Of a stretch of DNA of 64,000 bases, positions 37,698 to 40,283 are shown piece after piece. The notes under the pieces are model-generated. The model ran no database searches. It was not told where the DNA came from and saw nothing but the letters and a program-made list of their open reading frames with translations. The translations under genes were made by a program, and so were the position numbers. The stretch's first letter is position 1, and each line of letters begins with the position of its first letter. The DNA comes from Rhizobiaceae bacterium (GTDB lineage: Bacteria; Pseudomonadota; Alphaproteobacteria; Rhizobiales; Rhizobiaceae): contig JAHBYV010000020.1 in the NCBI GenBank assembly GCA_019635795.1, forward strand, positions 1 through 64,000, given 5' to 3'.

Positions 37698-37989
37698 CTC
37701 CCACCATCTATTCCGGCAATACCTGCAAAACAAGGAGCGTACATGCAGCTACTGCTTTAGCGGCTGTCCCGGCCGCATTCCAATTAACACTTTGTTAATA
37801 AAGGCAATGCCGCTGGCCGTCCATCGGTTCCGCCGATCAATGTGGAGCAATATCAAGCTGTGGTTAACAGCTATGCTACGCCGATTTGATGCGTCGCAAC
37901 ATTTTTGTTGCAGTGCACAATAGTTGAGTGTATAAGGCTTTCATAACAACCAGGAGAGGCTCGCAAAACGGGCCGCTGAAGGAATGGAA
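37698..37989. promoter_or_regulatory. Divergent intergenic region, kinase / phasin
   Basis: This 292-bp gap should hold the promoters of both genes. I see an AT-rich TTAACACTTTGTTAATAA stretch near 37783-37800 and the phasin ribosome site at 37979-37983, but no operator or RNA I can name. Confidence 0.3.
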
Positions 37990-38442
37990 ATGGCCAAGAC
38001 TGCAGAACGCATTGATACCGTTGAATTCCCGACCTTTGATACCTCGAAGGCAACCGAACAGCTCCGCACCTTTGCTGAAAAGGGCGTAGAGCAGTCGCGC
38101 GAAGCATACGCAAAGCTGAAGGACGGCGCGGACGAAGCGCAGAAGGTACTTGAAACGACCTTTGACGCAGCCAAGTCGGCTGGATCAGAACTGTCGCTCA
38201 AGACAATTTCGGCTTTTCGCGCTAACGCCGATGCTGGCTTTAATCATCTTGAAGCGCTTATTGGTGCGAAATCCCTTTCAGAAGTCGTTGAACTTCAGAC
38301 CGCTTTCTTCCGCAAGGGTTTTGAGACTGCGGTTGAGCAGGGCAAAGATTTTCAGGCTGCTGCTCAAAAGGCTGCCGAAGACGTTGCGAAGCCTATGAAG
38401 GGCGCCTTTGAAAAGGCCGTCAAAGACCTCAAAGTTGCGTAA
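37990..38442 (+). CDS. Phasin family protein
   Basis: A 150-aa, almost wholly helical protein with the phasin-2 domain: amphipathic helices rich in Ala, Lys and Glu (QSREAYAKLKDGADEAQKVL; LNHLEALIG-like NHLEALIGAKSLSEVVELQ; AFFRKGFETAVEQGKDF). Phasins coat poly-hydroxybutyrate granules. ATG at 37990 is chosen over 37984 because AAGGA lies seven bases before it. The gene is followed directly by a multi-hairpin RNA region. Confidence 0.9.
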   Translation: MAKTAERIDTVEFPTFDTSKATEQLRTFAEKGVEQSREAYAKLKDGADEAQKVLETTFDAAKSAGSELSLKTISAFRANADAGFNHLEALIGAKSLSEVVELQTAFFRKGFETAVEQGKDFQAAAQKAAEDVAKPMKGAFEKAVKDLKVA

Positions 38443-38449
38443 AGCGTAA

Positions 38450-38556
38450 AACGAACTCCGACAGGTGTTACCTCCTCCCAACACCTGCCGGTACCGACCG
38501 ACCTGTAAGTCGGTCAGAAATGGAAAAGGCCCGGATCTCCTCCCCCGGGTCTTTTT
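38450..38556 (+). ncRNA. Three-hairpin sRNA with CCUCCUCCC-type loops (alpha-r14 / cuckoo-like)
   Basis: Three hairpins follow the phasin stop. Hairpin 1 is CAGGTGTT / AACACCTG (38462-38469, 38480-38487) with loop ACCTCCTCCC. Hairpin 2 is GACCGAC / GTCGGTC (38496-38502, 38509-38515). Hairpin 3 is AAGGCCCGG / CCGGGTCTT (38526-38534, 38545-38553) with loop ATCTCCTCCC and a T tract, so it is also the terminator. Anti-Shine-Dalgarno CCUCCUCCC motifs exposed in loops define the alpha-r14 (NfeR1) and cuckoo RNA families of alphaproteobacteria. Whether it has its own promoter or is cut from the phasin mRNA is unknown. Confidence 0.72.
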
Positions 38557-38635
38557 CATTTTATCAGCATATGCGGAATCGGCCTTGCAATGTTCGCCGA
38601 TTATACGTAAGTGACCCCTCGTCCGACTTTGACGT

Positions 38636-38712
38636 GCAGTCGTAGCTCAGCTGGTTAGAGCGCTGGTTTGTGGCACCAGAGGTCGGTGGTTCGAACCCAC
38701 CCGACTGTACCA
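38636..38712 (+). tRNA. tRNA-His (GTG)
   Basis: A 77-nt cloverleaf with encoded CCA. The acceptor stem is GCAGTCG / CGACTGT (one G-U), the D-arm is TAGCTCAGCTGGTTAGAGC, the anticodon stem CTGGT / ACCAG encloses TTGTGGC with anticodon GTG, and the T-arm is GGTGGTTCGAACCCACC. The discriminator is A73 and the base before the acceptor is T, so there is no G-1:C73 pair, the known alphaproteobacterial exception. Confidence 0.96.
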
Positions 38713-38720
38713 TTTCAAGA

Positions 38721-40283
38721 TCAAAACAGGCTTCCTTGCCCACCACCCTCAGGCTTGGCCTTGCTTCGCTGGCGCGGGCTCTTTTCTCCCCCATTTGCAG
38801 CGAATGCGTCCAACTGCCCGTCAGATAGCTGGATAGCCAAGCTCTGCCCGTTGGAAACATCGCCAACGCTCTTTATGATTCGCCCGTCCGAATCTCTCAC
38901 CAACGCGAAGCCGCGGGCCAGAACCGCCTTGTGAGAAAGGTTCCCCAGCAGCCGGTCGCATTGATCCAGCTTTGCGCTCAATAAATCAAAGCGCGATTTG
39001 AAGGCTTGATCTTTTCGCCGAATAAGCACCAGCAAGCGCTCCCGGCAGACCAGAGTGCGCCGCGCGACCGGTTCTATCGTGTTTCGTGCCCCTGCTTTAC
39101 GCAGATGCGTTTGATGGCTGCGAACAATAGTCCGCAGCGCCGAATCGAGGCGCGCCTCCCATGTCCGCAAACTGCGCTTCGTGTCACCGACACGCCTCAA
39201 CAGTGTCAGCGGGGAAATGCGGACAGATTCCAACCTCATACGTTTGGACTGTGCGTTGACATCCAGTGCGCGGCCGAGTCTGCTTGCAACCTCGTCCAGA
39301 TGGCGACGCGGCGATGCGAATAGCTGGTCGGAGGTTGGCAATACTCTGGCTGTCGCGCGTAGCGCCGTGCGCTTTCGGTCGACAAGACGCAGCAGGCCGC
39401 TGCTTAGCCTTGCGCCCAGGCTTGCGAGCACCGCTTCCAGATCGGCCTTCACGGGAACAGCCATTTCTGCCGCGCCGGTAGGTGTAGGAGCGCGAACGTC
39501 GGCTACATAGTCGATCAGGGTCCAATCAGTTTCGTGACCAACCGCTGAAATGACGGGGATGCCGGAGGCTGCAACGGCGCGCGCAAGCGCCTCATCATTG
39601 AAGCCCCACAAATCTTCCAGGCTACCCCCGCCGCGCGCCACAATGAGAACATCCGGGCGAGGAACGGGACCATGTGGCTCCAAAGAATTGAAACCCTCAA
39701 TCGCAGCGGTGACTTCCTGACCGGTCGTCTCTCCCTGCACCCGTACGGGCCATACGATCACATGGAGCGGATAGCGGTCGGCGATTCGATGCAGTATGTC
39801 ACGAATCACCGCGCCGGTCGGTGAAGTAACGACGCCAATCACACGCGGCATGAACGGCAGGGCACGCTTGCGCTCGCTGTCGAACAAGCCTTCCGCTTGC
39901 AGTCGGCGCTTGCGCTCCTCAAGCAGGGCCATCAGCGCGCCAGCGCCGGCAGGTTCGAGATTGTCGATTACAATCTGATACTTTGAAGAACCGGGATAGG
40001 TGGTCAGCTTTCCGGTTGCGATAACCTCCATGCCTTCTTCAGGGCGGAAGCGGATTTTGCTCATCGTACCGCGCCAGATCACGGCTTCAAGCCGGGCGCG
40101 GTCGTCCTTCAATGCAAAATAGGCATGGCCTGAAGAATGCGGCCCGCGATAGCCGGAAATCTCTCCACGAACGCGAACGTTGCCGAATATATCCTCGACG
40201 GTGCGTTTTAGCGCACCCGATATTTCGGTGACGGTATATTCGGTTGCGTTGGTCGGCACCGCATTGTCGAAAGAATCGTTCAT
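38721..40283 (-). CDS. xseA: Exodeoxyribonuclease VII large subunit
   Basis: A 520-aa nuclease subunit. It has an N-terminal OB-fold ([38 protein letters not shown]), the catalytic region with [17 protein letters not shown] and [30 protein letters not shown], then a long coiled coil and a short C-terminal domain. With XseB it degrades single-stranded DNA. A start seven codons upstream (40304) is also possible. It is in the same orientation as the LysR gene. Confidence 0.95.

Follow-up and report, generated by a model that had tools for sequence, protein, structure and literature searches.

A predicted alpha-r14/cuckoo-type anti-Shine-Dalgarno RNA at the 3' end of a phasin gene in Rhizobiaceae

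Directly behind a phasin gene on a 64,000-nucleotide stretch of a Rhizobiaceae genome (contig JAHBYV010000020.1; hereafter the window) lies an element that, judged from its sequence and predicted fold, belongs to the alpha-r14/cuckoo RNAs, its middle hairpin being plain (Table 1). Phasins are the proteins that coat PHB (carbon-storage) granules. The fold of the element, its family, its conserved linkage to phasin genes, the lack of any recognisable separate promoter and the PhaR boxes in front of the phasin gene were computed here. We consider it likely that the element is an anti-Shine-Dalgarno RNA born from the phasin 3' untranslated region (UTR), which would be made together with phasin during PHB formation and would repress other mRNAs.

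Table 1 Positions of the predicted features in the window.
Feature	Position	Strand	Details
PhaR-type box 1, TGCGTCGCA	37890..37898	.	Core of the 21-mer WNWD2NYGCRNYGCRNH2WNW, 0 mismatches
Candidate phasin promoter	37908..37936	+	TTGCAG, 17 nt, TATAAG; read by eye
PhaR-type box 2, TGCAGTGCA	37909..37917	.	19 bp from box 1
Phasin gene (phaP1-like)	37984..38442	+	Start at 37984 or 37990; last base of the stop codon at 38442
Whole alpha-r14/cuckoo RNA	38452..38558	+	Rfam RF02344, model positions 1-123 of 123, 58.6 bits
Hairpin 1	38458..38491	+	Loop ACCTCCTCCC at 38470-38479, anti-Shine-Dalgarno
Hairpin 2	38496..38515	+	Stem kept; 6-nt loop without the motif
Hairpin 3 and probable terminator	38519..38560	+	Loop ATCTCCTCCC at 38535-38544; A tract pairs with T tract
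tRNA-His(GTG)	38636..38712	+	Usual downstream neighbour of the phasin locus

Three consecutive hairpins had been proposed after the phasin stop codon in the original prediction, and folding of positions 38450-38560 bears them out, with a minimum free energy of -49.4 kcal/mol against a mean of -28.3 for shuffled sequences (z = -6.87; 0 of 200 shuffles as low). ACCUCCUCCC is placed in loop 1 and AUCUCCUCCC in loop 3. The proposed extent of 38450..38556 needs correction, since the third hairpin reaches about 38560. Anti-Shine-Dalgarno sequences had been claimed for the first and third loops; this holds in full for loop 1, which contains the complete CCUCCUCCC, and in part for loop 3, which has 8 of its 9 letters, and the motif is absent from loop 2. 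The octamer CTCCTCCC occurs three times in the whole window against 1.59 expected, and since 19 of 100 shuffles also reach three copies, the octamer alone is not rare there. Two copies within the 130 nt after the stop codon were seen in 0 of 5000 dinucleotide shuffles, and one copy in 64 of them. In a terminator scan restricted to 3-8-nt loops, hairpins 1 and 3 are listed solely for the minus strand; that hairpin 3 is a terminator on the plus strand is suggested by its fold and T tract. Elsewhere in the window, positions 58-210 of the minus strand match the phasin-cuckoo model weakly (13.5 bits, E 0.014, with CTCCTCCC at 176-183), probably by chance.

The element matches the Rfam ar14 model over its full length (E 4.4e-10), and its score of 58.6 bits is 0.2 short of the gathering score of 58.8, which is why a curated Rfam search of the window lists the tRNA alone. 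The original assignment to the alpha-r14/cuckoo family, which was to be given up if no covariance model matched, is supported by this match and by the same-genus ortholog L047, which has the same layout and scores 60.9 bits. Sixteen of 20 linked relatives (20 submitted of the 24 then in hand) exceed the gathering score, and L042, L055 (same genus), L056 and L059 fall below it. As in ar14, three hairpins stand in a row and the last would act as the terminator, to judge from fold and T tract. The ar14 trait of CCUCCUCCC unpaired in all three loops is lacking in the window copy, and neither an own sigma-70 promoter nor a conserved upstream stretch, as in NfeR1, was found by two tests that are both weak. 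Compared with the cuckoo family, the element has two motif hairpins, the second of them incomplete, and stems that vary with compensation. Membership in CcsR1 (Rfam RF02791; 22.0 bits against a gathering score of 65.3) and in BSnc120 (Rfam RF02621; 23.6 bits against 114) was rejected, as was membership in a CIN1 locus, which has a DUF1127 gene directly upstream, since the upstream gene here encodes a phasin.

Across the family sample, ar14 matches occur in 116 of 121 genomes at E ≤0.001 and exceed the cut-off in 108, compared with 0 of 14 control genomes. The window's genome has four matches, three of them over the cut-off, in a search at a lax E of 1 that also returns below-cut-off matches in 3 of the 14 controls. 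On contig C11 (L001), DUF1127 genes at 1006-1146 and 1196-1336 are followed by tandem ar14 RNAs at 1344-1465 and 1501-1624 and then by a 490-aa ORF resembling trmFO; this locus is a CIN1-type arrangement in the window's own genome. A single copy on contig C29 (L003) is preceded at a distance of 54 nt by an exact LsrB-type box, and neither a phasin nor a DUF1127 gene was recognised alongside it. At least the two copies on C11 have the same loop motif as the phasin-linked one and could act on the same sites, and the presence of three further copies in the genome makes a distinct role for the phasin-linked one less certain.

The linkage to the phasin gene is strongly supported, as one part of the phasin tree shows it conserved at the corresponding locus. 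An alignment and a model were made from 29 phasin-linked RNAs, with L056, L057, L064, L181 and L201 left out of the 34 excised sequences. A phasin-model search gave a match at E 1e-8 in 92 of the 121 family genomes, and the 93 phasin loci analysed are the matches listed at 70 bits or more, in 88 genomes. The RNA is present at 34 of the 93, the 29 training loci included, at a threshold of at least 42 bits that was chosen after the scores were seen. Five further loci score 30.9-37.8 bits, among them L175 (37.6), which is without any TCCTCC, and opposite-strand matches of the same hairpins to the model of linked RNAs reach 27.8 bits. By a plain count over the 93 loci, at least one TCCTCC lies in a hairpin loop in 41 and at least two in 33. 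In the 34 linked copies, 25-101 nt (median 35) separate the stop codon from the first motif.

In the phasin tree, which rests on few columns, has many open forks and no bootstrap, and needs 8 changes of the RNA label overall, all 34 linked loci fall inside one group of 51 rows (SH-aLRT 92), as do five weak cases (L057, L206, L210, L216 and L232). The 42 family rows outside the group have no RNA. Together with 17 rows inside it, namely 12 without a clear RNA and the 5 weak ones, they make up the 59 of 93 loci below the cut, so the link between phasin and RNA is dispensable; the 12 include L037, L174 and L178, which are second phasins beside a linked one. At 74 of the 93 loci, the 350 nt after the stop codon contain a tRNA motif (25 of 34 with the RNA, 49 of 59 without). 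ARAGORN finds tRNA-His at 32 of 35 loci with the RNA (the 34 and L057) and at 24 of 26 without, the latter drawn from the 59 mostly because the tRNA motif was there. Since the tRNA usually follows with or without the RNA, these loci are the same chromosomal place, and the RNA came or went at that one place.

A text search of the best 80 of 381 named loci, ranked by phasin similarity, found two or three TCCTCC in 79, and the sequence of the 80th, L114, ends 56 nt behind the stop codon; the named loci, Mesorhizobium denitrificans LA-28 among those examined, are mostly from Mesorhizobium and hence not independent. Most named Mesorhizobium copies (L066-L113 and others) have a conserved GATGCAACAAAAGGTCGCATTTT-like stretch 20-45 nt behind the stop codon, which lies between stop and RNA and so puts about 100 nt between the stop and the first motif. 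PhaP2-like paralogs, our label for 17 of the weaker phasin matches, were rejected as carriers, with the RNA in none of the 17. A clear link outside the family was rejected as well: in other families, 0 of 26 phasin loci reach 42 bits, the nearest being L167 (38.3 bits, E 1.9e-9), and a text search of 30 more loci outside the family found no TCCTCC pair, L272 and L278 having one site each. L167, from another family of the order, has three strong hairpins after its phasin (1300-1438 of the minus strand, fold z -7.0), and the loops of two of them resemble CACCUCCCU and AUCUCCCCCC; this may be a distant or an independent case of the phasin-RNA link. In L278, also from another family of the order, a single terminator-like hairpin with the loop AATCCTCCCA was read by eye about 55-95 nt after the phasin stop; it is a one-hairpin look-alike. 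Eight records of a plasmid collection have phasins at 60-80% DNA identity, none spanning 80% of the query, and the available part of the report on M. huakuii 7653R names no ar14 entry in its sRNA table (PMC5596092).

The phasin itself is identified by matches to TIGR01985 (128.9 bits, cut-off 99.7) and Pfam Phasin_2. The second of the two PhaR-type boxes in front of its gene is overlapped by the -35 element of the candidate phasin promoter, which a consensus promoter scan of 37700-38760 does not report. At least two YGCRNYGCR boxes lie upstream of 28 of 30 phasin genes. The 21-mer PhaR box, a consensus derived from S. meliloti (PMC12542648; this and the other papers cited were available in part), is exact upstream of 22 of the 30 and has one mismatch in 8, compared with an exact match in 1 of 200 random 250-mers from the window. 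In S. meliloti, phaP1 has two boxes to which PhaR binds, and PhaR represses this gene and associates with PHB (PMC12542648); a PhaR is encoded in the window's genome (145.1 bits, cut-off 109.45). Since PhaR boxes also precede phasins without the RNA (L037, L043, L045, L053 and L062), PhaR control looks older than the phasin-RNA link.

The RNA could instead be a stand-alone alpha-r14 gene that by chance starts within the phasin gene or immediately after it, with its own promoter inside the phasin coding sequence. NfeR1-type copies of the family have their own sigma-70 promoter (PMC10746234), and some non-phasin copies have an LsrB-type box about 56 nt upstream. Against this, the scan of 37700-38760 found no sigma-70-like promoter for the RNA, although it is blind to the by-eye phasin promoter too, and 24 of 34 ar14 loci have a YGCRNYGCR box in the 200 nt upstream (29 of 34 in the 400 nt upstream), but only 1 of 34 linked copies has one in the 150-230 nt searched; there is none upstream of the window copy. 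The best -35/-10 scores before the linked RNAs are about those of random sequence, as they are for most other ar14 copies, and since hexamer scores thus fail to separate the two sets, this test has little power. With neither an own promoter nor an upstream box found, the RNA most likely starts with the phasin transcript, and we regard a stand-alone gene as unlikely.

The YGCRNYGCR box is seen about 40-190 nt upstream of many non-phasin ar14 copies (L005-L034). One set has it at -49/-50 (ten RNAs), where it overlaps or nearly overlaps in several cases the LsrB motif, published as GCAT-N3-TG-N3-T (PMC8844928), and therefore gives no evidence for PhaR. In a second set the box, mostly at -86 to -183, is TGCACTGCACAA or a near variant of it, similar to the PhaR box; PhaR itself or a factor like it might regulate further cuckoo copies.

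No clear RNase E site was noticed. In Rhodobacter sphaeroides, ccaF1 (DUF1127) and CcsR are co-transcribed and cut by RNase E (PMC10253847). Because there is no recognisable promoter before the RNA, PhaR boxes precede the phasin gene and DUF1127-CcsR offers a precedent, the original suggestions that the RNA is processed from the phasin mRNA and that it couples PHB to repression would fit the evidence.

It is also conceivable, though improbable, that the hairpins are merely the 3' UTR and terminator of phasin, with CCUCCUCCC loops that are idle in trans. Hairpin 3 has a terminator-like fold, many phasins elsewhere have, by eye, a seemingly simple terminator, and the middle loop motif has been lost in the window's genus and a few other lineages. 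However, three hairpins are needless for one terminator, NfeR1 uses the same loop motif to act in trans (PMC10746234, PMC8844928), and the loop motif is retained where compensated changes make the stems diverge. In the 29 aligned RNAs, 92.8% of cells pair, and both sides have changed in 21 of 27 pairs. The covariation score is 0.474, compared with 0.210 for shuffled alignments (0 of 500) and 0.062-0.144 with partners slid, for a structure obtained by RNAalifold on the same alignment, which favours the score. The six columns of TCCTCC in loop 1 are invariant in 29 of 29, and the mean conservation of hairpin 1 is 0.90 in the loop vs 0.56 in the stem. Varying stems with a constant loop motif are the described appearance of the cuckoo family (PMC4504443; PMC3927594). 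Of TCCTCC sites, 25 of the 34 linked copies have three, 8 have two and 1 has one; the third site of L056 falls behind its RNA. The middle hairpin, whose conservation was to be checked according to the original prediction, keeps its 7-bp stem with compensating changes, but its loop lacks the motif in all three genus members examined (the window, L047 and L055). The full motif is also missing from loop 2 in L059, L061 and L181 and in the named loci L118, L134 and L143.

For an RNA that acts in trans, we searched the window's genome for GGGAGGAG-N3-9-ATG sites and found 8, vs 1 for the backwards control. Six of the eight predicted-target ORFs were scanned and all have a Pfam family (the other two, of 26 and 166 aa, were outside the scan); three of the six are ABC-transporter parts. 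The families are two periplasmic binding proteins, a branched-chain amino acid type permease, an FGGY sugar kinase, an AMP-binding enzyme and a UPF0261 protein. Predicted duplex energies of the targets with loop 1 range from -16.9 to -18.0, values that are strong by construction. In NfeR1, the anti-Shine-Dalgarno loops act on two periplasmic binding protein mRNAs and on ntrB, according to the available text (PMC8844928, PMC10746234). Cis feedback, in which the RNA pairs with the phasin's own ribosome-binding site, is very improbable: the window 5' UTR does contain AGGAGAGG, but pairing is weak (-9.8 kcal/mol with the 5' UTR included), this weak site is altered in same-genus L065, and phasin self-targeting was rejected as the start region binds the loop hardly above background (-7.8 in the window and a mean of -7.0 for 25 of 30 phasins, five being dropped since their start was not placeable, vs -6.5 for 50 window ORFs).

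For the preferred reading of an RNA made with phasin and acting on other mRNAs, we propose the following course, in which transcription, processing, PhaR control in this organism and targets are all predicted. When PHB accumulates, the repressor PhaR (AniA) would move from the phasin promoter to the granules, and its release would allow a phasin-cuckoo transcript to be made, in which the RNA would serve the phasin mRNA as 3' UTR and terminator. The hairpin part may then be cut free, with RNase E as the likely enzyme by analogy with DUF1127-CcsR in Rhodobacter, or may persist as a stable 3' fragment. Its exposed CCUCCUCCC loops would pair with strong Shine-Dalgarno sites, chiefly of ABC-transporter and sugar-use mRNAs, and this pairing would lower translation of those mRNAs. 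Carbon storage may thus turn down nutrient uptake via the predicted RNA. More tentatively, we suggest that in one clade of rhizobia and related bacteria a phasin transcript controlled by the PHB sensor PhaR carries at its 3' end an anti-Shine-Dalgarno RNA that shuts off translation for ABC transporters and sugar use; in this single-transcript link between storage and uptake, the middle hairpin would have turned into a plain spacer in the window's lineage. If true, the cell would read its own storage level and close import without an extra regulator.

The RNA family and, for DUF1127, the layout of a protein gene plus cuckoo RNAs are already known. No report of the phasin-cuckoo link, its clade or its tie to PhaR was found in the literature searched, where one paper (PMC9230146) mentions both DUF1127 and phasin, and to which the family-naming paper was out of reach; the linkage may be described in Reinkensmeier and Giegerich 2015, Gruetzner 2021 or PMC3346310, all outside that search, and the name CIN1 hints at further named cuckoo neighbourhoods. 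A phasin-tied copy would give a multi-copy RNA family a physiological input, PHB status through PhaR, in addition to an output known from NfeR1, the blocking of strong ribosome sites, often those of transporters. It would also add to DUF1127-CcsR a second example of cuckoo RNAs carried in the 3' end of a protein gene.

The window RNA resembles alpha-r14/NfeR1 of Sinorhizobium meliloti in its three-hairpin row, CCUCCUCCC loops, variable stems and several copies per genome, and ABC-transporter targets are predicted for both. While NfeR1 is transcribed from its own promoter under LsrB/NtrC control and shows the motif in all three loops (PMC10746234), the window RNA is tied to phasin, has no promoter that we could find and has the motif in two loops. 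As in CIN1/ccaF1-CcsR1-4 of Rhodobacter sphaeroides, cuckoo-type hairpins lie directly behind a small protein gene, but the partner here is a phasin with PhaR boxes, not DUF1127. MmgR of Sinorhizobium meliloti is likewise a PHB/phasin-linked sRNA, and its promoter has a PhaR box (PMC12542648); the available text of PMC7143759 lists it apart from NfeR1 as another sRNA. Unlike the window RNA, MmgR acts on phasin expression from another place in the genome.
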